Positions 35,805 to 59,480 of a DNA stretch of 64,000 nt are shown one piece after another (the first letter of the stretch is position 1; every line of letters begins with the position of its first letter). Source of the DNA: Nitzschia sp. pyKryTriq1 (taxonomy: Eukaryota > Bacillariophyta > Bacillariophyceae > Bacillariales > Bacillariaceae); contig OY101123.1 of NCBI GenBank assembly GCA_956465555.1, positions 496,001 through 560,000 on the forward strand. Reading direction: 5' to 3'. The notes beneath the pieces are model-generated. The model worked only from the letters and a program-made list of their open reading frames with translations, was not told where the DNA came from and did no database searches. The position numbers and the translations under genes are program-made.

Positions 35805-36445
35805 GATCAGATCCAATTATCTAATAGTATTTTTTTAAGAGGTGAGAGGATTCAACTCAGCAGTATATCTGATACCGGGTGTCTTGCTATGGCCACTTTG
35901 GAGAAGCTTGCGATGATCAGCAGGTATGTTTCGTCTTACCGTACAGGTAAGAGTACTGGTACGATCAGTCCATTCATCACTCATCACCATCATGGTCCCG
36001 AACGCGTCATTATCATTCATCATCATTCAGATCATTTCCCGCGATCATTATTTCTTCGCATTAATTTGGTTACGTCTTGCAACAATTTTCGGCGGCTGTG
36101 CTTGCTGTGCTGCATCCAAGTGGAACGGCGTGGGTGGTTCATCAGGTTGATGGCCCTGTGCGCTCTCGCGCGTCTCCACTATGATACTAAGAGTGAGCCC
36201 AATGCTCGTGCGCGAAAGCGCGATCTATATTTTCTCTGTAGCTGCCTGCGCTCTCTCGACTCGCTCTCGATCTCCTTCTCTCTCAATCCCAAAAATTCCG
36301 ACCATCTGGGGACCAACAATAATTCTTTCCTTTCATCGATGATCTTTGACACAACAAATCATCACATCTCATCATCGTAGACTCGTAGACTACTGCATTC
36401 GGAGACGACCAACTCGGATAGCATTCCTCCAATCGTCGAAAAGTG
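35805..36445. other. Divergent intergenic region between VKOR and XRN genes
   Basis: No gene seen. It contains GTACAGGTAAGAGTACTGGTAC at about 35940-35961 and GCGCGAAAGCGCG near 36211. It presumably holds both promoters. Confidence 0.4.
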
Positions 36446-38969
36446 ATGAGCTCTATTCTCCATGATGTATGTTTGAGTATCATTTGCCTGCTGGCGGTGC
36501 TATCGTCCACCGGCGATGCCTTTGCTCCACTGGCGTCACACCAGACGAGGTCCGGTCTCCTTCCTGCTCCGTCGGCGCCCACAAAAACACGCTCTTCTTC
36601 TGGCGGGGAGACTTCCTCGACGGCCTTGCTCGGCATTCCGAAAATGTTCCGCTGGTTGACCGACCAGTATCCCAACATCATCAAGGATCGTTTGGAGGAA
36701 GGACTGTCGGAAGACATTGCGGTAGACAACTTTTACCTCGACATGAACGGCATCATCCATCCTTGCACGCATGGTAATGCGGACGGAGAATTCATTTATT
36801 TGGATGAAACGGCCATGTTCAAAAAGATCTTTTTATATGTGGACCGACTCTACAAAATGGTGCAACCCAGCAAGGTGCTCTATCTGGCCGTTGATGGTGT
36901 GGCACCCAGGGCCAAGATGAACCAGCAGCGATCCAGGCGGTTTCGATCGGCCAAGGAAGCGGAAATGCTGGCTGCCGAACTGATTGCCCGTGACGAATTC
37001 AATGGCAAAAAGAGCTCGATGGATCTGGATAAGACTCGATTCGACTCAAACTGCATCACGCCAGGAACGGATTTCATGCTCAAACTATCTTTGGCCATGC
37101 AAAAGTGGGTCGAGTACAAAATGCAAACAGACCCCTTTTGGATGAATGGGGCGCAAGTTATTGTGAGTGGTCCGGATGTGCCCGGAGAGGGCGAGCACAA
37201 GGTTATGGATTTTATTCGAGAGGAACAAGAAAAACACGCCAAGGGGGAAAAGTCGGACCTGTACGCTCCGGGCCGGACTCACGTACTCTACGGACTGGAT
37301 GCCGATTTGATCATGCTGGGGTTGGTCACTCATGAGCGGAACTTCATGTTGTTGCGTGAGAAAATGTCGGTCGTCATGGCTGGTCGTGGTCGGAATAAGT
37401 ACCGCAAGAAGAAGGATATGATGGAATACAATCGATACGATTTTGAATTGCTGGAGCTCTCCTCGCTTCGACAGTTGCTGGCCATTCAATTCCGCAAATT
37501 TTCTGACCAAATCGCCGACTACTCTCTGGATCGTATTGTGGATGATTTCGTCTTTATGTGCATGCTCGGTATGTACAAAAACAACAGCTTCTTCTGTGAA
37601 CATTTTACGATCATCAGCCACTGCAGCTATCTACTATGACATGACTTCTTCTTGTATATCTCACGCATCAGTATTGTCCTCTTTTTTGTTTGTTGAAATA
37701 ATAGTTGGTAATGACTTTTTGCCTCACAGCCCGCATCTCGAAATCGACGGTGGTGCCCTTTCACTCATGCTTACCAATTACATTGATTTGCTTCCCGACT
37801 GGGGTGGCTATCTGACGGATAGGGAAAAGATTCATGCGAAGCGCTTTGAACAATTCATGTACCATCTGGCCCTTTACGAGTACGAGCATTTCAAGCGTCG
37901 GGGTTTTGAGGAGAATGAGCCTGGCTGGAAACTCTCCCCGGACAATGAAGCAGAGGAGGAGGACTTTTATGGAGCCTACTTTTCCGGTAAACCCACTCCC
38001 GCCGCCGCATTTCCTGCCAAAGCCAAGGGAAGTATTCCACCCCCTTCCAAGCTCAAGCCAAAACAACAACTTCAAGAATGTGAAACGGAGGCAGAAGTAG
38101 CTACTGCGATGGTGGATGATGGTGGGGACGATGAGGAAGTTGTTGGGGGACCCCCCGGTAATCGCGCCTTTCGTCGGCGCCATCCGGATAGTCAGGCCCG
38201 CTCCTATCGCGACTTTTACTACGAAACCAAAATGGGCTGGCCCGTCCAGGATCGAGACCGCACACTCTTCCAGCGTCGAGCCCATGTTCGAGACTACTTG
38301 GAGGGTCTTCACTGGAATCTGAACTACTACCACAATGGTTGCGCCTCTTGGGATTGGTACTTTCCTCACCTTTACAGTCCCCTGTCAACGGATATGGTCA
38401 ACCTAGAAGAATTCTATGACGAATATGAAGAGAACAAGGACCAGGAATTCAAGACGTTTCCCTTTGAAATGGGCACACCCTTTCCCAGTTTGGCCCAGCT
38501 CTTATCGGTCCTTCCTCCACAAAGTGCGGCACTCCTCCCGAAGCCCCTTTCCGAACTTATGTTGCATCCCTCTTCTCCTCTCATTCCCTATTACCCTCCT
38601 GACTTTACCTCGGACCCGAATGGAAAGCGCCAATCCTGGGAGGCTGTCGTTCAGATTCCATTCATTGAGGCTGATATTTTGTTGGACACTGTCGATCGCG
38701 TCTTGTCGCAAGATAAAGAAGCGTCGGGAAGTCTACTGACACCTGCCGAGAGGCGGCGCAATCTTCCCGGGGACATTCATGTGTTTGTCCCTCCGGGTGG
38801 TGGCGAACAACAACCTGCCGGTGGCGGTGTCAAGAAAGGTAAAATGTCATCCAGAGGGAGTGCGGCGGGGAATGGTGCCTCCAATAAGCCACGAAGTAGT
38901 GGTCCCAAGGAGGGCTCGCCCAAAGGCCGCAAGCCCGAAACAGCGGTAAAGACGGAAGAACGTCGATAG
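36446..38969 (+). CDS. XRN-family 5'-3' exoribonuclease with plastid-targeting presequence
   Basis: Two exons, 36446-37568 and 37705-38969 (136-bp GT-AG intron), 795 residues. Residues 1-25 are a signal peptide (LSIICLLAVLSSTGDA) with a classical FAP at 26-28 (GDAFAPLAS), then a Ser/Thr/Arg-rich transit-like stretch. The XRN core starts at about residue 62 (LGIPKMFRWLTDQYP), where cytosolic and nuclear XRNs start at their Met. The acidic active-site residues are present: YLDMNGIIH, AVDGVAPRAKMNQQR, GPDVPGEGEHKVMDF, YGLDADLIMLGL and VGNDFLPH. The later NYYHNGCASWDWYFPHLYSP is the conserved second region. The C-terminal tail is short and basic. The enzyme should degrade 5'-monophosphorylated RNA; plastid location is inferred from the presequence. 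Confidence 0.9.
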
Positions 38970-40856: not shown

Positions 40857-42845
40857 TTAATGATACGTACCATGCGATTCTTGCTGACGACCGGAATAGC
40901 CGTAGCTCGAAGGAGCACCCACAGTATGAGTGCTTGCTCGAAGCGAAAATTCTGGTTCTGGTAGTCCTCTGATGCCATACGGCATTTTGACTCGATACAA
41001 ACCTCCTCCATCAGGCCCTCGGGTGGTGATGAACAATTCATCCAGATTCGGTCCACCAAAAGTACAAGACGTTGGTGACTTGACTGGTAAATGGACGACC
41101 ATATCGACCACTCCAAGAGATGGATTCACCCTCACCACGCGCCCGGCTCCGCTCAATGCTATCCAAAGGAAACCATCCGAATCCACTTGAGCTCCGTCAG
41201 GACCGCCTGGCAGGTTGGGAGGTACAGTCCACACCAACCGTCGATTACTCAATTGTCCCCCTTCATTGGTCGGATAGTCAAATGCGTACACTTTTCGCGT
41301 TGGGGTGTCACAGAAATAAATGGTCTTTCCATCCGCTGGAAAGCAGATGCAGTTGGAGACGCGAAACCCATAATCCAGAATTTTCTCGTACTGAAGGTTT
41401 GCTCCAAGGCGGAACAAACCAGCATTATTCTCGCCTTCCGAGGAACCAGCCCGATGATAGTTATTGTACATTCCAAACACAAATCGCCCCTGTCGATCGA
41501 CGCGGCCATCGTTCGGTCGTGTCGTAGACTCAAAATCCGGTCGATCGCACAAAATTGTAGCTCCTGCGGCAAAGTCAGTGGTAGTGGCTGTCATTTCCAT
41601 CTCCAAAATAGCATTCTCGCCTCCCAACACAATCGAACCCCTTGGACCTTCTTTGAGTACGACACAGCCAAGCATAGTTCCTAACAATCTGCGGTATGGG
41701 GGAGTCTTTAAGTCCCATCTCCAAACTTCCTCCTCGGGGGCACTCACCCAATATAGGCATTGATCACGAGCCGACCACACAGGACTCTCTCCGAGTACAT
41801 TCTTGGTGGAAACGCATTCATGGGCAGTGAGCTCTATTGGCCGAGAGTGGGACGCCATGGTCGGCATGGGAGTGCCGCCATCCACAATGCGAGTGAACGA
41901 GTCGGCATTGAGAGAAGCCGCCCCTCCCACCAGAGCCCCGTTGATTTCATCCATAGAGAGCATATCCATAGCATTGTCAGGACTCACGTTTCCACCATAT
42001 TGGATACGGCAGCGAGTGGCGACGTCGTCTCCAAACTTGTCTGCCAAGCTTTTGCGAATCGCTTGGTGAGCCTTGTTGGCTTGTGAGGGCGATCCTGCTT
42101 TTGATGGTTCGTAGGCAATCACGATGCGATCCATTGCGGATGCACTAACACCTAATAGACCCTTCTTGATTTGAATATCAATGGCCGACGAAAACAGATT
42201 GTTGCCCGATTCTGCCTCAGTCTCACCGATGCAGAAGACAACATTTAGATTGGGCTGCTCCAGACAGAGGTGGATCTTTTTGTTGATTTGCTCATCTGAT
42301 TCCTTGAATAGAGATCGCCTCTCGGATTGTCCGAGCAAGACGTACTCGCATCCCATGGACCGAACCATGGAGGCCGAAACCTCACCGGTGTAGTCACCCG
42401 ACGATTGAAGACCGATGTTTTGAGCTCCCACCTTGACACCAGATCCGTCCAGTTCCGTTAGAGCAATGGAAAGAAAAGGAAATGGAGGAAACACAACAAC
42501 TTCTGGTGTATCATCAGGGCCAGTGATTGCGATTCGATGATTGACGAAATTGGCTGCGATTAGCTTCAAAAGATTGGAAGCCTCCGATAGAGTTGCCGGG
42601 TTTAGCTTCCAATTCCCCGCCACAATACAAGGTCGTCGCCTAGGGGCTCTTGCAGGTATCAAGGAATCCTCATACCAAATTCCCGTCTGTTCACCTCCAT
42701 TGGTGGCTTCCACGGCACTATTTGTAGTGAACGATCGAGCAGTTCCAGCCTTGACGATTCCGTTGATTGAAAAGGCGTGGGACCTGCGACGAAGGAGCAG
42801 AGCAGGAAGAAGCCCCGTATAGTAGTAGGAGCTCACAAATTTCAT
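40857..42845 (-). CDS. Triosephosphate-isomerase-like domain fused to SMP-30/gluconolactonase-like domain, plastid-type presequence
   Basis: Single ORF, 662 residues from the ATG at 42845, chosen because it gives a signal-like start and Ala-Phe motif (LLPALLLRRRSHAFSING). Residues ~73-322 follow triosephosphate isomerase: AGNWKLN with catalytic Lys80, IAYEP with catalytic Glu246, and YGGNVSPDNA and LVGGAASL. The catalytic His of LGHSERR is Gln173 here (LGQSERRSLF), and loop 6 is shortened (YEPSKAGSPSQ in place of YEPVWAIGTGK). Residues ~345-640 form an SMP-30/gluconolactonase-type beta propeller with metal-ligand candidates Glu353 (LGESPVW), Asn445 (RPNDGRVD), Asn498 and Asp550 (GGPDGAQVD). 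The lactonase half looks competent. The isomerase half is probably weak or repurposed. Confidence 0.88.
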   Translation of the reverse strand: MKFVSSYYYTGLLPALLLRRRSHAFSINGIVKAGTARSFTTNSAVEATNGGEQTGIWYEDSLIPARAPRRRPCIVAGNWKLNPATLSEASNLLKLIAANFVNHRIAITGPDDTPEVVVFPPFPFLSIALTELDGSGVKVGAQNIGLQSSGDYTGEVSASMVRSMGCEYVLLGQSERRSLFKESDEQINKKIHLCLEQPNLNVVFCIGETEAESGNNLFSSAIDIQIKKGLLGVSASAMDRIVIAYEPSKAGSPSQANKAHQAIRKSLADKFGDDVATRCRIQYGGNVSPDNAMDMLSMDEINGALVGGAASLNADSFTRIVDGGTPMPTMASHSRPIELTAHECVSTKNVLGESPVWSARDQCLYWVSAPEEEVWRWDLKTPPYRRLLGTMLGCVVLKEGPRGSIVLGGENAILEMEMTATTTDFAAGATILCDRPDFESTTRPNDGRVDRQGRFVFGMYNNYHRAGSSEGENNAGLFRLGANLQYEKILDYGFRVSNCICFPADGKTIYFCDTPTRKVYAFDYPTNEGGQLSNRRLVWTVPPNLPGGPDGAQVDSDGFLWIALSGAGRVVRVNPSLGVVDMVVHLPVKSPTSCTFGGPNLDELFITTRGPDGGGLYRVKMPYGIRGLPEPEFSLRASTHTVGAPSSYGYSGRQQESHGTYH

Positions 42846-43460
42846 GATGACATCAAATTTGATTTCCCAGCTATCAGTGAAACGCTTTGAGGGAAGCCGA
42901 GACCGAAGGGCTGGTGACTGGTACCGCAGCTCTTTGTTACCCCAAATAAATCGATTGTGACAGTGTGTCATCCGGATCTTCGGTCGAGCCATCAACGGCA
43001 CGACAACAACATCATCCTCGCTCGAGATGAAGCAATCATCATCATCATCATCATCATCATCGATTTGGCGCGCCATGCCTGCGTGTCTACGCGTGGCACC
43101 CTGCCTGTGCGACCGCACTGACGTACTTCGTTGTTTGGCTCAAAGTAGTCTAATCAAAGAAAAATATTATTGTAGTAGGAAAGCATGTACCGTATGCAGC
43201 TAGAGTGAAGAGATTGTGGATAGAAAGCAATGGCAGCCTGCAGTCAAGCGCAACTTCAGAGCACAATTTTCCATAATTCTTAGTAGATGGCGGAGATTCT
43301 TATTCAAACAGGCCTGCTGAATTTGCCTCGTATTTTCTCGTCACGCCCGCCAGCGAGAATCCGAAAAAAAGGAACGCCGACCGCTCAAAAGTCAACATCC
43401 GTTCTCCTCCTCTCTGGTGTGCAGGAACATATTTGCAGGGTTCCATAATCAAAAAATAAT
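42846..43460. other. Intergenic region upstream of the fusion gene
   Basis: In-frame sequence extends the fusion ORF up to 43118, including a poly-Asp run coded by the ATC repeat at about 43028-43061. I regard it as 5' non-coding because the presequence starts at 42845. No other gene is seen to 43460. Confidence 0.45.
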
Positions 43461-44924
43461 CTAGTTTTTGTTCTTGCGTCGTCGTTTGGCCTTATCTTCT
43501 TCCGCTGCCTGTCTTGTTCGGCGCCGATGTTTGGCCTTGTCCTCTTGACGATATTCATCCGATTGCCCCGATTTATCTCGGGCAACCTTGAGTTCTTCTG
43601 GAACTTGATCGGGCCGTCCCACGAATGTTTTCCATTCTTCTCGGACCTTGATTGCTCCTAGTGGGGCTCCTCTTGGTTTCAAGAGGTGCTTTGGTTCGGC
43701 TGCGGTGACTTCTGCCTTGGCTTCGGTTCGCAGGTCGGAATAGAATATGGCTAGATCGGCTGCAAACTGCAAACAAGCTTCTGTCGGCGTCGGCCCCCCT
43801 CGTCGATTCTGAATCACAACATGAGCACCGGGGCATCCTCGACTATGCATCCAAACATCATCTTGCCGCGCCACATTCAGACTCAAGTATTCGTTGCCTC
43901 GACGATTCCGCCCCACCAACACGGTGCAACCACCAGGACTAATGAGCTTGCGAACATTGGATGCTGGAGTCCCCAATTCTGGCTTGGAATTGTTTCGCCG
44001 CAGCTTGGATTTATTTCCTTGCCCGTCATCATCTCTCACACTCGAAGGATCTGGAATTTGAAAATTGGTCGTCCTAGCCGATCGGATCAGTCGTTCCTTG
44101 ACCAACGTCAGGCGCCCCTCATCGATTTCTCCTTCGCTGAGTTTTGCAGACTCCAAGTCTAGCTGGTTATCTTGCAGTGTTTGTAAAGCTGTCGTTGTTT
44201 CTTCCAGCAAGGTTCGCACCACTTGACTTCCTCGTTTCAACTTTCTAGCCTGCGCAAACAGAGCATCCGCTTCTGCCGAAGCACTATCGTATTGGGAACC
44301 CAGTTTCACTTCGACTTCTATGCCGTCGTTCTCCCAGTCCGGCACCCATGCAGATTTAGTTCCCCGTGGAAACAAGTAGAGATTTGATACTAAGAGTTGA
44401 GCTCGATATACTGTTTCTTCCACGTTCTGTGCCTTGACGAATTCCGATTCGAGAGATTGGTGCTTCTTTCGTAATTTTTCCAATGCTTGATTTAACGCTT
44501 TTGACCAAGTCTCGTGCTCCTGTATCAGTTTGGAGGAAGGATCGTCGTTCTGCATTGATGAGGAAGAAAGTTCCTGGGAATCATCATCTTCTAGGGAAGA
44601 ATCGTCATCATTTTCATCGTTGCTCCAGCTGTTCTCATCATCCGAAATAAAATCCTCGTCGTCCTCATCCCATGAAGCGGAGGCACTGGCGGCCGACGTG
44701 GGGCTCGTAGTCGACAGGAAGAGCCTGGTGGGTGTATCTATCCTTCGAGATGATGATGACGATGATGATATCGGGGAGCATTGGAGGCCCCTGGCTGTTA
44801 TTCTTTGAAGCGGAGCTTGCGTATTGGCACTAAAGGCATTTACCGCTCTTCCTGGAAAAAGGAGCCACACAGCAACCACCGGTAATCCATGAAAGACTCG
44901 TTTCGTACCCAGCACCATCGTCAT
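43461..44924 (-). CDS. Plastid-type NFACT-R domain protein (RqcH/NEMF-like) lacking the NFACT-N domain
   Basis: 487 residues from the ATG at 44924; the upstream ORF extension is GTAC-rich promoter-like DNA. The N-terminus is a signal peptide (VFHGLPVVAVWLLFPGRAVNA) followed by FSANTQAPLQ, an ASAFAP-type site, and a Ser/Arg-rich transit region. After an acidic stretch, residues ~150-310 form the coiled-coil/middle region of Rqc2-type proteins (YRAQLLVSNLYLFPRGT). Residues ~350-455 are the NFACT-R domain: GRNRRGNEYL, DVWMHSRGCPGAHVVIQ, AADLAIFYSDLR and a proline/glycine-rich loop. The tail is strongly basic. In RqcH/NEMF, NFACT proteins bind split large ribosomal subunits and tRNA. NFACT-N and helix-hairpin-helix parts are absent here, so peptide tailing activity is doubtful. 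Confidence 0.85.
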   Translation of the reverse strand: MTMVLGTKRVFHGLPVVAVWLLFPGRAVNAFSANTQAPLQRITARGLQCSPISSSSSSSRRIDTPTRLFLSTTSPTSAASASASWDEDDEDFISDDENSWSNDENDDDSSLEDDDSQELSSSSMQNDDPSSKLIQEHETWSKALNQALEKLRKKHQSLESEFVKAQNVEETVYRAQLLVSNLYLFPRGTKSAWVPDWENDGIEVEVKLGSQYDSASAEADALFAQARKLKRGSQVVRTLLEETTTALQTLQDNQLDLESAKLSEGEIDEGRLTLVKERLIRSARTTNFQIPDPSSVRDDDGQGNKSKLRRNNSKPELGTPASNVRKLISPGGCTVLVGRNRRGNEYLSLNVARQDDVWMHSRGCPGAHVVIQNRRGGPTPTEACLQFAADLAIFYSDLRTEAKAEVTAAEPKHLLKPRGAPLGAIKVREEWKTFVGRPDQVPEELKVARDKSGQSDEYRQEDKAKHRRRTRQAAEEDKAKRRRKNKN

Positions 44925-46134
44925 GAAATAATCGCTACTATCTGTATTCGTCGACAGCAGATGCTGGGAACGACAGAACAAATGAAGCTGGTCTGCAGAC
45001 AAGAACTTCCAAGGACAGAATTTCGTACCGGTACAGTAGCACATGCGACAGGACTGCAAATTTAAATTTGCTTTGCCCCGCCGACCACGGCAGCAACACG
45101 GAAAATCCAAGCTGCATGGTACAAGTACGGTACCTATGGATACTCTCAAAGTGCAACAACTGGCAGTCCCGCACACCACGCACCGCGTGCAACCTGCAAC
45201 GAAACGAGACGCAGAGGACGAGGGGGAGGACGAGAGGAGTGGTACAGTAGTCGTCGTCGCGAAGAACGGGCGACACGCAGACCCAGGCAGATGACACGGA
45301 GCGAGGATGACGATGATAATTCATTCGATGAAGTCAAATTCGAAATTCCGGATCTGTTGGCGAGACGACGACGCGATGACGACTTGTTCGTACAAGTACT
45401 GTAGTTCGTAGTACCGGTACCTGGTACTCATACTGTATGAACAAAAGAGAAACTAAAGGACGAGAAGATCCTGTTGGTACATACTCATACACGAGAACAT
45501 CTTCTTCCACGCGTCAAAACCAATAAAAAAGGTTCCGCCGCATCACCGTCCACGTGGTGGATATTTTTTTTGTCAGCAATCTTCCATTCTGCCTGCCTGG
45601 GCAAGATGACGAATGACGAATCACAACGAACGATGACTCGAACTTGAACCATCATCGTCATTCCACGAAGCTCCAGAAAAGAATCTTCAAACACGCACGC
45701 TCTCTGTCTCAGCAGGGTTTTGGACCTCTCATGTTAAATGTCTATTTAACGACTAATGTAAAGCCTTAAGTGAGGCAAATTCGGTTCCCACGAAATAATG
45801 CCGTGGCGAACCTTTTGCGTTCGTTGGAAGCCGATGACGCGGTCGGGCAGAAACAATGAATGAAACCCGAACGCATTCGAACAGCAGATTCTGAAGAGAT
45901 GATTTGGCGAATTTCGGTTGCATGAGCTCGTGAGCCAACACGTGTGAGTCAGCCGCACGTAGGACTGGTAGAAATTTTTACTATCTCACATAATCGACCT
46001 CTTGAGGGTTGGCCGAAATAATGATGTGGCTGGGCTCGACCGAAAAAGTACCCCATCATCCGACAACTTCTTATCAAAGTTCATTATTCTACAACCTCAT
46101 ATTTCGAAAAGCCCCCAACCTTACAACAATAACA
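44925..46134. promoter_or_regulatory. Divergent intergenic region with GTAC clusters
   Basis: Lies between the NFACT-like gene (-) and the epimerase gene (+). GTAC clusters occur at 45026-45040 (CCGGTACAGTAGC), 45120-45133 and 45391-45440 (GTACAAGTACTGTAG, GTACCGGTACCTGGTACTC). ORFs in this region (for example 45043-45294 and 46009 to 46134) lack protein-like content. Start of the epimerase is placed at 46135. Confidence 0.45.
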
Positions 46135-51505: not shown

Positions 51506-54500
51506 TTAGAACAAAGACGGAAGACTTTTTTCAGCCAGTGACTTGTGGGTTGTGGTCTTCAGGCCTCGAACAATTGTGTGTTCGTCGACTGCCAAGGATG
51601 TCATTGGCCAAGCCCCACCACTACCACCGCCACAAGATCGAAAGGATGTACTGCTACTACTGGCGGTGCGTAGGTTGATCAAATTTGTCTGCAGGGAAAT
51701 ATAGAGTTGCGTAGACAGGTGAGAAAAATAACTCGGCGTTTTCCGTTTTTGTTCACGGGGAATGATCCGGGTTATCTACGAGTAACATACCTCAGCAAGT
51801 CGATTTAGGAGCTGAATCGTCTCGCCAAAAGCTGGCGGGGGTGCATACTGTGGATCTCCAAAAGATCCGCTGAGAGCTTCCATTTTCATCATGATATCCG
51901 TAATATCGAAGCCTCCAACCTCTCGACCAGTCGTCCTGCACAAGGATGCGAGTGAAACAAGCAACAACGCCTGGAATGGAGTTGAAAATGACACAGCAGT
52001 AACAAGAGCCGAATCAAAGGACTCTCTGCTCGCTTTCTGGACATCGCTGATACGAACGGTTGGGTACTTTCCTGTCGGCGCATTTTCCTTATCGGCGTCG
52101 ATCCTTCTGAGTAAAAGCTCAGCTGCTCCTCTGCAAATTTGAAATGCTTTGCGGATGTCTCCACTCATCGCAGCAGTTTTCTTGGCTGCAAAAAGTATCG
52201 CATCATTCTCAAAAATAGCATAGTTCTGTACAAACAGAAGAAAGTTAGGCAACGTGTTTCAAGCACCGACGGTATTCTAGACCACCTTTCAGAGCTTACC
52301 GGGGAAGCCTCCGAAATTTTTGCTTTCAAGATTGCGCCAGCGTCTTTCACGCTATATGCCTTAAAAACGATCCGTTCCGATCCTACCCGCGATTGGACGC
52401 TTGGCATGAGTTGCTCTGCCAAATTGAGCGTGTTCGAGATTCCTATGACCACAAGTCGTCGCCCGCCCGGAACCGATGCAGCTCTCTTCGGCCAATCAAA
52501 GAAGTTGTACAAAACGGACTGCTTCTCGGTTACAAGATAGTCAATCTCATCCAGTAGCACAACTGTAACTGAATTGTCGTCATCGGAAGCAATCGCTTTG
52601 GGATTCGTGAAATGGTACTCGAGTTTCTGACAAGCCTTTTCATGTGATCCGACATGTTTGCGTCCAGTGACAGCCTCCCATAATTTCACGTACGCTTCAA
52701 AAGGGTGACGCATCTCCATCCCGTTCAAAGGAATAAAGTTAAAGGTGGAGAGGTCACCGCGAGCCTGTTCCGAATGAAGTAGGGAAATAGCCGAGCGAAT
52801 GCAAGCTGTCTTCCCTACACCTGGTGCACCAGCGAGGAAAATTGAGGACCGTATACCGCCTGGGCCAGGTTGCCCACGGATGGCTGCTCTGAAGAAGGAT
52901 AGCAATTGCGAAAGCTCCTTTTCTCGTCCAACAAGAGTTTCTCCGCGATTATATGCTCCGGTGGATGCTTCTTTAAGATTGAGTTTTGCAATGATTCTCT
53001 TCACAGACTCAGACCAATCAATTGCACTACAAGACGATTTCTGAACTGAGCGTCCTCGTTCTGCATCTGCGATCGTACGAGCGGATGCTTCTGAGGCCAC
53101 TGGAAATGCTTTAGGGATGACCTGCGAGTACATTCTTGCACGTTTTCCTCTTCCGCTCAGACCTCCGCACGGAATTAGTGACTTCCTATGTGTCGACCAG
53201 AAACGACGGCACAAGAAGTTTTTGATGGGAGAACCCATGAACTTTTCTTCGTTTTGGTCGTAATCTTGGTCCGAATGTAGACTGGCCGGAGCTAATATTG
53301 TTGTCAAGTCATCAAGAATAAAGACGTCGTCTGTTTCGAATACTTCGTCTCGGTCCATTGCGGAGACAGCACCAGACTGGCCAACTACGTCGTGACGCTC
53401 ATAGAACCAACGAATCTCGACTTTCAAATCGCTAGAATCATCTCTGCTGGACGAATGTGCATCCTTTTCGAGGCCATCCCTGTCCTCGAACTGCTTCCAT
53501 ATCGCTACGATTTCTGCGACTGCAGAGAGTGTGAGCAAGTCATCGTCCAAGGAGACTATCACCATGGAGTCGTCAACGTCTTTCTTACCTCCCCAATTGC
53601 ACTTAAAAGGGTATCGCTTTGGTCCGTCACAGTGCATCAACACGACATCGCCAGTTTTGACAGTCCAGGGCGGCGATTTTGAGGCGCTAAAACTCGAAGC
53701 ATTCTCGAAAAGGTTCTGTTGAGGATGTAGCCGGAATTCATGGTAGAAAGCTTGTAATTTGGACACGTCCACAAATACAGGGCTTCCGATTGCCTGGGCA
53801 GCTTCATGCCCAGCATCAGAAATCGCGCCTCGAGTGAGAGTCGTCTCCTTTGCAGCACTCGACGAACGGGACCCCAGAGCCTGCATTATATGAGCCAACG
53901 ACTCCTCGGTGTAAGACCTCGATAGGCTCATCGCTTCATTCAATTCGGGCGCTTCTGCTTCATTAACATAGAAGAGAGCACATGGAAGCTTTTTTGAAAG
54001 TGTATCCCAATCGAAGCTTGATTTTGAACCACGATGAATAATCTTGACAAGTCCCAATAGGTCCGAGAAGCTAACAATACCAGTGAGCCGTTCTGAAGAT
54101 TGGCAGATCTCGTGTATATCAAGTTTCCCCGAAGTAAACTCGTCCACGACTCTGAGATACCTGACCTCAAAGGACAATTCCTCGACGGAATTCGAGCCAT
54201 CTGAATAAATTGCCAATAGCTGGCACGGGGTCCATTGACAGCGGAACGGGAAATGCGTAGAAGACTCGTTAGTGGGACATGAATCGTCTCTCACAGCGAT
54301 GAAATCACCAAGTTTGACGTCCAGCATAATATTGGCTCGGTCACTTGGGTGATACAAAACGTCCGATTGGACGATTTCATCCCAAAGTGGTGAAAGGACT
54401 GCCCCAGTGAAAAATGCCCGGTCAGATTTGGTCAAGGACGTTACTTCTCCTGAGGCACCTGCTTGAGCCAACATGGCACTTCCCAATAGACCACGGACGT

Positions 54501-57500
54501 CCAAGGAGTCGTGTCTCTTCGACTCCGTCAGTGTGGCTTGTTTGAGTGCATCGATGCTTTGTACCAGCCTTGACAAAGCGATTCCTCGGGCAAATAGCCG
54601 ATCCCACCACGTCTCGGGAGAAAAGCCAGCCGAGAAGATAGGCTGAAAACGACCGTGAGAAGAGTGGTAAAAGTACTTGCACCGGCAGGATGCCAATGTC
54701 TCTGATTTCCTTTCGTCACTGGCTTTTGATGCGCGGTCGTGTTTTCCCAGATATACCTTGGATAAACCAAGGATGCGCGCAGCTGAAACGGATGAAATCA
54801 GGTCATCTGATTCAAAAATCTCCTCTCTTTCGGCGTCATCATTCACAGGAGCGACCGAGCGAGAATCATCGGGAATTTCGGAGAGTCGGTAGAAACGACG
54901 GATCTCAAGCAGTGGCGATTGTTCAGAATCATCTCGGTCATCAGAGTAGATGGCCAGGATTTGGCCGAAACACCAAGAAACGCGATAAGGGGACCAAGGG
55001 TACTTCAAAAGTTTCATGAGAACATGGTCTGACCTTTGGCAAGCATCTTCAGCGTAATAAGCGACAATATCGCCGACGCTCACGTTGCACTGAAGTTTCC
55101 TCGCCTTCCTCACAGCTTTGGAAGGGACTGCAATGTACTCGGCAGGAACGCTAACTTTCAGGCTTCCAGAAAAGCTTAGGCGAGAGCCTCCCGTTTTCGC
55201 TTCAATGTGCCACGGATTCACGATTTCAGCCTTTACTTTCTTCTCATCGAAAGTGATTGCGCTGTTCTTGAGGAGTGGAAGCAAGGGACCTTGTCCTTCC
55301 CACTTCCGGAGAATTTCGTCATCCAGGTCTTGCCCTCGGAGACTAATGTGCTTCGAGTAGCGTCTCGACAGCGTCAGAATCCATTCTTTCTTTGTCCGAT
55401 TCCGGGGGTCGAGGAGAAGGCCACGCATCAAAGGTCTCGGGCACGACGGCAGCTGCAAATCGTAGTTGGTCCAGTCTGGTGAATCATCGATTTCTTCGTC
55501 TAGGCAAATTTGCGAGCAAAAACGCGGAATAAGTGGCAAGCCCGAGAGCTTACTCTTTTCAACGTCCCAGTTCTCGCAGAGAGAAGACGAAAGCACAACC
55601 CGGCCTGGAAGCGAGCACGTCACGTCAAGATGGTCGTAAGATTCTGTTTCAAAGACGACATGATGTTTGTCCAGCTCCCCCAGTCCTGATTGCTGGTGTT
55701 CGAGCAACTCGTGATAACGATGGAACCACCGAATTTGCATTTTCCACCTCCCGTTTTCATCTTCGTAGATGGAAATAATTTGGGCAGGATTCCAATTGCA
55801 GATGAATGGATAACACAAGTTCTTATCCTTTCTTTGGGGCTTGGCTCTATCATCATCGATTTCACATGCGACTGGGATGACATAGCCCACTTTGATCGTC
55901 CACTGAGTCGTTTGGGGGGTAAACGAGGAGACCAGAGTGTCACGATCAATATCCATTCGCACACCGTCGTGAAACTTGACACCCCACTCTTCAAAGATGG
56001 GAGTGCTCTCTAGAGCTTGGACTTGCAGCGAGGACAGTGATTCTTCGTCTTCCTCGTCGGAGGTGCTGTCTTCTTCCTCATCGTTGTCAGAAGTCGACCT
56101 CACCTTCACTTCGTTCCTGTATTTCTGGACGACTCGCGGATTGATGTTGAGACATTTGAACGCTCGATGAAGAGGCCCATTGATCTTGTTCGAGCTGGCG
56201 GAAAAGTCTTGCCAGTCATTTCTCAACTGCAGCTTGTCGTCTTGGTCTTGATCGCTCGCTCTCTCGTGAAGATATTGGCATTGAAAATACAGCGTTGGCA
56301 GAGTGCTGTAATCCAAAGTCACAGGATCGGGAAGTCGCCGTAGAAGTTTTCCTTGAGGATGATCGGAGGCGACTTGCACGTTTACGGGCAAAATGGCTTG
56401 AATTGGAGAAATCGCGACCTCCATCGTCTCCAAGAGTCCTTGTTCGACATGGAATGGCGTTTTTCGTCGTAGGAGCCGTTCTTGCAACGACTCTGATAGT
56501 TCGCCAAATCGCAGTAGCCATCGAACCTGCATAATCCACTCATCCGTTTCCCTAACTTGATAAAGCGCCAAGATCTGGGCGACTCCCCACGGACCATCAA
56601 AGGGTTTAAAATCGGATGAAGTGAACGTGTCTTCCTTCACGACAGCCACCACTTCTCCAACAATGATCACTCGGGGTTGCGCTTCTCGGTCGGTCGTCAG
56701 ATTGACGCGCTCGTAAAAGTCCCAGGTCTGGCCCCGATACTGGCCGCGATGAATCGATGTTTGAACTGGAGCATGAATGATCATGGCCTGCTGCCTCTTG
56801 GAGAGACGGAGATCCGGAAGTTGATCCAGTGGAGATGATGCCGTCGAGCTGGATTTCGTCGATGGTGTCGTGTCGACATGCATTTTCTTGGACGATGACG
56901 TTTTGGATTTGGGTGTTATTGCTGTATGAGATTGCTGGAATTTCGCCTTGACGCTGAGAGTGGCTTTCTTGATAATCGACTTTACCGCCGTGCTGGTGCC
57001 CTTTCTCTTGGCCGTCTTTGATAGCAGTTGTTTCGAAGTCGTCGATACCTTGGGGGTTTCTCCGGGTTCGTGAATACGCACTCGTTTGCTCGAATGATTC
57101 AGATCTTGTTCCGCCGCTGCTGCTGATGCTGTTGCTGAGGGAATCCCTCGTTTCCCTGTTCGGCTCTTCTGTAGCTTGCTTTGTCTGCCTTCCTCTAGGA
57201 TCCGTAGACGCTCTTGTTCTTCCTCGTCGATCTTTTTTCGCTCCTGGACGTGCCTGTTTTTAAAGGCAAAATATTCTTGATGCTTGCTGCTACAAGAATC
57301 TCGAAAGCCTTGCAGCAACGCCTGTAACAGGTCATCATCTTCTTGTACTGGCTTCCACTTGGCCCAGGCTTGTTGGAGTGGCTGGGGCGGGAGGGCATTG
57401 CTACTCGATTTCTTAGCAAAGGAGAGATGATTCAGTTCTGGCCACGTATCCATGGCTGGATCTGGTTGGTGTGTCGCACTACCGTTGCTATCGCTATAGC

Positions 57501-58191
57501 TGATAATCTTGGGACAGTGCATAGAGAAGGAGAATCGATCGTCGGGATCCCAGATGAGATAACCTTTCTTGTTGAATTCCTTCGCTGACAACATTGTAAT
57601 TTGGACAGGAAGCAGATTCGCGGGCGAAACACACTGATAGCGATTGCTCCGCAATAAGACATGCGGGAGCCTGCTGGTTTTCTCATTTTGCTTGGACCAC
57701 TTTCGATAAAACCGCGACAGCTTCTCGACGCTCTCCGGGGGCGTGTCGAGCGCCTTTTCCAGCCACTCCACGTGACACTCATGAGAGACCTTTCCGTCCT
57801 TTTGAGGATCCACTACCTGTACCAATGCTAGCACCAAACCGACCTTCCAATGCGGCGAGGCCTTTAGTAAATGCTTCGGTTGCCACTCTTCCAACTCTTC
57901 CAGCGTCAAATAGCAACCCTCTGCTTTGGTCGCGACCGCCACCATATCTCCAATGTGAACCTTCCATCGGTAAAACTCGGAATTATGCTGCACTTGAAAA
58001 CTAGAAAAATACTCCTTTCGAAGACCACCACCACCACCACCACTACTACTACTGGAGGTTGGAGAAGTAGTGTACAAGCAGCGAGCCACGGGAACAATCA
58101 TATCCTCCAGCATCGTCGTTGTCGTCGTCCTCTCCGCGGGGTGATTCTTCTTTGTCGAGGCGGCAGCGGCTGCTCCTGCTGTGGTGGTCAT
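51506..58191 (-). CDS. ORC1: Giant ORC1-like origin recognition protein with six BAH-like modules
   Basis: Exons on the minus strand are 58191-52300, 52225-51791 and 51688-51506; GT-AG introns of 74 and 102 bp; about 2169 residues, roughly twice usual ORC1. The last ~400 residues are an ORC1/Cdc6 AAA+ ATPase. LVGREKELSQLL comes first, Walker A GAPGVGKT sits near residue 1790, Walker B is VVLLDEIDYLV, and VVIGISNTLNLAEQLMP and SRVGSERIVFKAYS follow. Across the first intron AAMSGDIRKAFQICR is sensor 2. Ahead lie six BAH-like modules beginning near residues 77, 500, 767, 1033, 1290 and 1507. They share a pattern of V-x-x-G-D-x-V, PFxCNWxPxQIxxIY and IRWFxRxxE. ORC1 normally has one BAH domain. 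An earlier in-frame start at 58272 is less likely (GTAC-rich). Confidence 0.88.
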
Positions 58192-59480
58192 GCTGTCCGT
58201 ACCGGTACTATGCTGAGGCTGGGAATACAATACCGGTGCGTACTCGTATTGCAGTCTTAATAGAAGAGGCAATGATGGTGGTTGATAATGATGGTGATGA
58301 TGGGTTTCTGTTGTTGTTATCTTTGGGTTTTGGATGGAGAATAAAATGGAAGAGTGAAGAGTGATGATTTTTTGGCATTGGTGCCGGCTGGTCGGCGCCG
58401 TGCCGATCGACGTACGTACCAGAACCTGGTACTGGTACTGTCTGTGCTCTGTAAATACATAAGTACATTGTAAAAATGTAGTCCGTAGAAATCCTACGGG
58501 TACTGTATGTACACAGGACAGGAAGAGGATGTATTCGAATGATTCGAAAATCCATTCTTTCTATTCTGCTATTCTTGTCCCTCGCTCTCGAACGCAGACG
58601 AAGGAAGAGCCAACAAAACACTTCGGGGGCGGGAATGACGAGAGGATATTAAGCACAACTTCCTCAAAAACGTAGCTACCGTAGAGTAGTAGCTCTACTA
58701 CCACCGGTTGTACTACCGGTACTCTCTACTACGTACTCGTAGTAGTAGAGAGAGCACCAAAAAAGAGTAACTACTCTACTAGCTAGTAGTAGTAGTAAGA
58801 GCGCGAGTAGAATGCACAGTAGTTTCTTACTCTCCTGGTGTACTGGTGCCTCGCAGTACGGTACTGACACTTCAAAGTCCGTCGCAGCCCCGCATGCGAG
58901 TATTTTCGTCTAACGCCTACTAGTAGAGCCTCTAGTAGCCATGGTGGTGGCATGATGATAATAGTGGGATTTGTGCATTATTTATTGTTTTGCAGTTCGT
59001 AAGAATGCACAAACAAGCGAAGTGAGGATGTTCAGTGCGTACCTGGTACGTACCGGCCGCGGTCGGCGGTGAGAGGAGGGACCAAGAAAAACAAGAATGA
59101 TCTAGTGGTACGCATTGGACTGTAAACTATGAGGAGTAAGAGTAAACCATTGCAGTACTACTAGTAGACGGCCAGTCCACTGCGACATTGTACTACACCA
59201 CAAACAATAAGAAAAGTAGTAGTATGTAGGTTAGGAGTTGTCGGAAATTATTCATACTATTTCTTCTTCTTTTGCTACTAGTACTCGTATCATTGTCGTC
59301 CTCCGCCTCCCGAGGACCACCAGACCAACGACCGCCCCCGGCCGGGTCCTTAGTATGATGATCAAGAATCAAGGATGCTCCCCCCCTGTGTTCGTACTAT
59401 GCATGCTCCTGTCGTCCCCAGCAGCACGTACGTCAGCAGAAGGTGGAATGGTGGTGGGCTGTGATCTTTCTTATTCTTCC
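58192..59480. promoter_or_regulatory. Upstream region of ORC1, dense GTAC and TAG/CTA palindromes
   Basis: CCGTACCGGTACTATG lies immediately upstream of the ORC1 start (58197-58212). A second cluster runs from 58409 to 58513 with seven GTAC sites by my count. From 58675 to 58870 the DNA is dominated by CTACTA/TAGTAG and GTAC elements in both orientations. A third patch (GTACCTGGTACGTACCGG) lies at 59039-59056. No gene supported. Confidence 0.45.

Follow-up and report, generated by a model that had tools for sequence, protein, structure and literature searches.

Enzymes of the XRN family normally reside in the cytosol or the nucleus, and RNA decay in plastids is thought to be due largely to enzymes derived from the cyanobacterium, plant chloroplasts depending on RNase J. 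The gene described here, which a sequence-only reading had taken to encode a complete XRN core behind a diatom-type presequence, raises the question of whether a eukaryotic decay enzyme may have been moved into a complex plastid. The window, by which we mean the whole stretch of 64,000 nucleotides that was analysed, comprises bases 496001–560000 of contig C9 in an assembly of 40.65 Mb and 20 contigs.

Gene model

The XRN gene occupies positions 36446–38969 of the window on the plus strand, and its two exons give a spliced product of 795 amino acids (Table 1). An in-frame TAG at 36419 lies upstream of the ATG at 36446, and splicing joins the end of exon 1 (...FMCML) to VGNDFLPH, the conserved XRN motif. 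As had been proposed, the core begins with LGIPK at the point where other XRNs begin with Met-Gly, in this case as Leu62-Gly63-Ile-Pro behind 61 residues. The protein therefore departs from the Met-Gly-[VI]-P N-terminus, which is a trait of known XRN members and not a strict definition of the family.

The gene model was built from genomic sequence alone, and its 5’ end could be wrong, in which case an exon missed upstream, or translation beginning further downstream, would make the product a cytosolic or nuclear XRN. We consider this unlikely. The first Met after Met1 in this frame is Met67; with no Met between the two, an intact XRN core requires the presequence, and initiation at the internal Met would remove the conserved LGIPK. 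The third-position GC of the presequence (0.59) also resembles that of the core (0.63), the upstream DNA having a value of 0.44, and the genome already holds a canonical XRN1 (on contig C4) and a RAT1/XRN2 (on contig C1).

Table 1. Features of the XRN gene in the window and of its predicted product.
Feature	Residues	Window positions	Strand	Basis and remarks
Exon 1		36446..37568	+	Presequence and most of XRN_N; ATG-opened frame, XRN_N match
Signal peptide MSSILHDVCLSIICLLAVLSSTGDA	1-25	36446..36520	+	Hydrophobic core and cleavage motif; top combined score
Predicted transit peptide FAPLAS...SSTALL	26-62	36521..36631	+	+1 Phe, Ser/Thr, charge, predicted stromal site
XRN_N catalytic domain	62-306	36629..37363	+	PF03159, 292.9 bits; active-site residues present
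XRN_M helical domain	359-736	37520..38789 (intron-spanning)	+	PF17846, 250 bits; profile positions 2-344/443
Intron		37569..37704	+	136 bases, GT...AG, contains in-frame stop
Exon 2		37705..38969	+	Runs to stop codon
Basic low-complexity tail	737-795	38790..38966	+	59 residues, Gly/Lys/Pro/Ser-rich; composition

The XRN core and its active site

Both core domains, XRN_N and XRN_M, scored well above the Pfam cut-offs in the window protein. A sequence search of the PDB returned 14 matches at E<=0.001, all of them XRN1 or XRN2/Rat1, with human XRN1 (9e70) the best at 414 bits. We aligned the window protein and four paralogs from the same genome with human, fly and yeast XRN1, S. cerevisiae Rat1 (8q6v) and Chaetomium Xrn2; the two rows for yeast XRN1 cover part of the protein, and active-site mutations are present in the chains from fly and K. 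lactis. All seven catalytic acidic residues of human XRN1 (D35, D86, E176, E178, D206, D208 and D292) are kept in this alignment, as D99, D150, E248, E250, D285, D287 and D378, and so are H41, K93, Q97, R100, R101 and W540, as H105, K157, Q161, R164, R165 and W686. In XRNs the acidic residues bind two magnesium ions, while the 5’ phosphate and first base are held by H41, K93, Q97, R100, R101 and W540 (human XRN1 numbering).

Solely as a check of the fold, we modelled the structure of exon 1 from a 6-row alignment. The model is of moderate quality (mean pLDDT 65, pTM 0.64, with pLDDT below 50 in the presequence), and its best 27 Foldseek matches in the PDB are all XRN chains (E-values from 3.7e-21 to 4.7e-15), so the modelled exon-1 part has the XRN fold. 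A Pfam scan of the 795-residue protein found neither the D1, D2/D3 and SH3 domains after the core nor the metallo-beta-lactamase and beta-CASP domains of RNase J. We conclude that the gene encodes an XRN-type 5’-to-3’ exoribonuclease, which is predicted to digest RNA carrying a 5’ monophosphate.

The presequence and its predicted destination

The reference for diatom plastid presequences was taken from the same genome, in which the chlorophyll-binding family has 72 exon-wise matches. Among the 30 chlorophyll-binding (light-harvesting) loci examined, 18 showed both a signal peptide and an ASAFAP-like site, and the genome is most naturally read as that of a diatom or a near relative. The 14 distinct motifs from these 18 loci were made into a motif matrix, one mis-sited motif being kept. 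Adding a hydrophobicity term gave a combined score, a home-made measure that stands in for SignalP and ASAFind. On this score the XRN start, at 14.91, ranked first among 354 ATG starts in the window that open at least 100 codons, each nested start being included as an entry of its own. When only the matrix was used, it was outscored by at least one further start in the window (9.68 vs 8.91).

The signal peptide ends in GDA, giving the motif GDA↓FAPLAS, and Phe26 opens the stretch FAPLASHQTRSGLLPAPSAPTKTRSSSGGETSSTAL. According to the accessible parts of PMC4329603 and PMC12136025, a plastid call needs F, W, Y or L at +1 (PMC4329603), and a Phe at this position marks plastid over periplastidic targeting (PMC4329603, PMC12136025). 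The stretch that follows (residues 26–61) had been described as rich in Ser and Arg, a description that its composition corrects: it is Ser/Thr-rich (13 of 36 residues), with only two Arg and one Lys and a net charge of +2. The sole acidic residue stands at transit position 30, leaving the first 29 positions free of them. These values agree with those given for diatom transit peptides in the accessible text of PMC3774753, namely a length of 12–42 residues, 18% Ser, 14% Thr and a mean charge of +2.6. The window protein thus combines the ASAFAP-like motif of red-lineage plastid proteins with their Ser/Thr-rich, net-positive and nearly acid-free transit peptide and with Leu at -2 of the predicted stromal cut, and departs from them in having Leu at -1 of that cut.

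How specific is this signal? When the presequence residues were shuffled, 85 of 5000 shuffles reached the combined score of 14.91 (maximum 23.56), so the motif by itself is not overwhelming. The presequence might accordingly be a secretory or endomembrane signal that resembles ASAFAP by chance, in which case the nuclease would end up in the ER, in the vacuole or outside the cell. We hold this to be very improbable: motif, charge and Ser/Thr content all suit a plastid transit peptide, another XRN in this genome (on C14, described below) is similarly built, and XRN enzymes work on intracellular RNA. Mitochondrial targeting was rejected by reasoning alone, as a signal peptide and a Phe at +1 do not fit it.

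Another candidate is the periplastid compartment, the remnant of the red-algal cytosol, where the enzyme might act instead of in the stroma. A former eukaryotic cytosol would suit an XRN. To our knowledge, however, diatoms retain no nucleomorph, so little RNA would be expected there. In the accessible text of PMC12136025, periplastid and plastid signals are near-alike and a single residue can switch them, although periplastid proteins lack the Phe at +1 and carry acidic residues throughout; the Phe at +1 and the acid-free first 29 transit residues of the window protein are by the same account plastid marks (PMC12136025). We therefore regard a periplastid location as improbable, and prefer the stroma as the destination.

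A predicted stromal cut before Gly63

In the accessible parts of PMC3774753, diatom stromal cleavage sites are described as having Leu at -2, preceded by hydroxylated residues at positions -6 to -3. Scored by this rule, the best stromal site in the window protein lies directly before Gly63, which corresponds to Gly2 of ordinary XRNs, and in the C14 paralog a cut before the matching Gly ties as the top-scoring site. The scorer is ad hoc and was built after the published rule was known (PMC3774753), and shuffled sequences reached the observed value in 829 of 20000 cases for the window protein and 1079 of 20000 for C14. The window protein has Leu at -1 of the proposed cut, a residue that does not occur there in the published set as given in the accessible text (PMC3774753). 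Applied to 14 light-harvesting transit peptides, the same scorer gave a top site with Leu at -2 that reads as plausible in 10, one of which falls after just 10 residues; in the other four, two top sites lay inside the mature protein and two lacked Leu at -2. If the predicted cut is right, the stroma would yield a Gly-first XRN, as the cytosol does through removal of Met.

RNase J and RNase E/G in the genome

Plant chloroplast RNase J serves in 5’-end maturation and removal of antisense RNA, according to the accessible portions of PMC7154860 and PMC10989914, the latter of which also states that RNase J occurs in every sequenced cyanobacterium. The sequence-only reading had suggested looking for a separate RNase J in this genome, and two models used for that purpose found none. 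In a six-frame, exon-by-exon search of the whole assembly, which may be incomplete, there was a single match to TIGR00649, the model for RNase J (27.9 bits vs a cut-off of 400), and a single match to RMMBL (39 bits), both in one gene. This sole candidate, on contig C2, was rejected as RNase J: its beta-CASP exon scores 257 bits with human CPSF73 vs 108 with INTS11, and a CPSF73-100_C domain lies downstream, identifying it as CPSF73. RNase E/G had no match in the same kind of search of the possibly incomplete 40.65-Mb assembly. Of 14 control genomes, 13 had matches to TIGR00649 (9 of them above its cut-off), 12 to RMMBL and 6 to RNase E/G. Since the enzyme of plant chloroplasts was not detected in this assembly, the host’s XRN may have taken over RNA decay in the chloroplast.

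Paralogs, phylogeny and relatives elsewhere

Five genes in the assembly, on contigs C1, C4, C9, C14 and C15, account for six exon-wise matches to XRN_N. The C1 gene resembles XRN2/RAT1, scoring 587 bits with yeast Rat1, C4 encodes a full XRN1 with D1, D2/D3 and SH3 domains, and the C15 gene resembles XRN1 and has a D1 domain (49 bits). These three begin with MGVP, with an in-frame stop closely upstream (the short first exon of C4 was read by eye). Downstream in the C15 gene (L008, 2–2284, minus strand) runs a stop-free frame of 761 residues that holds the end of XRN_M (2–123), D1 (184–335) and a proteasome-subunit domain (564–746, 157.9 bits); an XRN-proteasome fusion and two genes sharing one frame are both possible readings of it.

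The fourth paralog, C14 (L010, 1490–5041), is divergent. It has an XRN_N match of 123 bits and no XRN_M match, its middle and C-terminal parts are long and of low complexity, and its identity with the window core over the aligned columns is only 23%, with the catalytic residues kept. Its N-terminus reads as a signal-peptide-like MPWLLCVAVKLCGA followed by FLLPLA, a Ser/Thr-rich stretch and then KLH↓GIKGF. The combined presequence score is 6.02 (vs 14.91 for the window protein), and the position that gives it does not coincide with the FLLP motif. This low score, together with the Glu found at position 11 of the transit stretch, makes the targeting of C14 less certain. We suggest that C14 may be a second XRN predicted for the same compartment as the window enzyme.

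A phylogeny against known XRNs had been proposed as a check on the origin of the window gene. Trees were computed from 11 XRN rows and then from 10 rows after removing C14. In neither tree did the window gene have a well-supported place, the best 10-row tree putting it with XRN1 at a support of 60/41. Pairing of the window gene with C4 alone was rejected (p 0.019), as was pairing with C1 alone (p 0.030), while wider clades that join it to the genome’s own C4 and C15 (p 0.18) or to XRN2 (p 0.43) were not rejected in this tree of few rows. The phylogeny thus rejected a simple pairing with the genome’s own XRN1 or XRN2 alone, and is compatible with more than one deeper origin. The window gene seems to represent an ancient lineage that has evolved rapidly, and not a duplicate of recent date.

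Relatives were also sought outside this assembly. With the spliced window protein as the query, no pattern matched in viral contigs. With the window core and three paralogs as queries, 4 of 29 candidate stretches in viral contigs and 4 of 41 in genome contigs were relatives, the window gene being the best-scoring query at none of these eight loci. Three of the eight had their first residues read (L046, L050 and L051), and all three start with Met-Gly. As the eight loci fit other queries better, and the three starts read are of the ordinary kind, they give no measure of the spread of the plastid form. Four XRN-encoding contigs (L048, L049, L050 and L051) are filed in bacterial bins, and the frames of L048 and L051 are broken in an intron-like manner; these four are probably contaminants from eukaryotes or viruses.

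Neighbouring sequences in the window

The XRN gene has a neighbour some 4.5 kb away, at 43461–45179 on the minus strand, that encodes an NFACT/RqcH-like protein (NFACT_N, 67.9 bits). Its N-terminus, MVLGTKRVFHGLPVVAVWLLFPGRAVNA followed by FSANTQAP, is also a plastid-type presequence, and the protein is a possible plastid ribosome-rescue factor. Between the two genes, at 40857–43118 on the minus strand, a single frame combines triosephosphate isomerase with an SMP-30/gluconolactonase domain and has, by eye, a possible organelle presequence. A frame of 2035 residues with BAH and AAA domains, at 52165–58272 on the minus strand, appears to be ORC1-like, a name that we infer. From about 928 to 21600, a unit of about 7.15 kb is present in three tandem copies (periods 7152 and 7158); in the two copies scanned, its long forward frames gave a weak TPR match at the end.

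Proposed function

Altogether, the spliced frame, the Pfam matches, the catalytic residues and the presequence score bear out both halves of the original proposal, a complete XRN core and a diatom-type presequence in front of it. Its further suggestion, that a eukaryotic decay enzyme may have moved into a complex plastid, finds support at the level of sequence in the bipartite presequence, the Phe at +1, the acid-free first 29 transit residues, the lack of an alternative Met before the core and the intact active site, and the second presequence-bearing XRN, on C14, strengthens it. We think it likely that the window XRN is targeted to the stroma of the four-membrane red-lineage plastid and is active there as an exoribonuclease.

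Under this proposal, the signal peptide would take the precursor into the ER/periplastid route, and the Phe-led transit peptide would carry it across the inner membranes. The stromal processing peptidase would then cut at ...SSTALL↓GIPK, leaving Gly first, as in a cytosolic XRN minus its Met. In the stroma, the enzyme would digest 5’-monophosphorylated RNA ends nucleotide by nucleotide toward the 3’ end, such ends being made by endonucleases or by a pyrophosphohydrolase that takes off pyrophosphate, and would halt at bound proteins that mark mature 5’ ends. It would thereby fill, with an unrelated enzyme, the role that RNase J is known to have in plant chloroplasts.

Broader versions of this proposal are held with less confidence. 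We put forward tentatively, as somewhat short of an even prospect, that the lineage has lost RNase J and RNase E and that two eukaryotic XRNs carry out plastid 5’-3’ decay and 5’-end maturation, with the transit cut recreating the Gly. That an XRN fully replaces RNase J in function seems to us likewise possible, at a little under even odds.

If diatoms and their kin do use an XRN in this way, a compartment of bacterial type, with uncapped transcripts, would have received a eukaryotic decay enzyme. Such a move would explain how 5’-3’ decay continues without RNase J, and would show clearly that a host can take over the RNA metabolism of its organelle. Mapping of 5’ ends in diatom plastids would be a direct test of it, and the predicted processing to Gly2 is a precise detail that can be checked.

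Comparison with known systems

The window enzyme belongs to a known family and is unusual in where it is predicted to act. Among the literature matches listed there was no plastid-targeted XRN, although genome-wide prediction tables in supplements may already include one. In the accessible main text of PMC4329603, supplementary tables apart, neither ‘Xrn’ nor ‘exonuclease’ occurs; likewise, supplements apart, ‘exonuclease’ is absent from the accessible text of PMC12136025 and PMC5462543, and ‘xrn’ from that of PMC3774753.

Like XRN1 (Pacman), the window protein has both core domains, all catalytic residues and no insert before the first catalytic Asp; unlike it, the window protein carries a plastid-type presequence and lacks the Met-Gly start and the D1, D2/D3 and SH3 domains. 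With XRN2/RAT1 it shares the core and active site, but it has a presequence and is without the N-terminal insert of about 15–19 residues found in those enzymes. The C14 XRN resembles it in layout, sharing the signal-peptide-like start, the Ser/Thr-rich stretch and the predicted cut before Gly, with an F-L-L-P motif in C14.

The comparison with chloroplast RNase J is one of job rather than of structure. RNase J can also cut RNA internally. What the two enzymes would have in common is the proposed job of 5’-3’ decay and 5’-end maturation of plastid RNA, as described for RNase J in the accessible text of PMC7154860 and PMC10989914; RNase J is a metallo-beta-lactamase/beta-CASP enzyme of cyanobacterial origin, whereas the window protein has the unrelated XRN fold and a eukaryotic ancestry.
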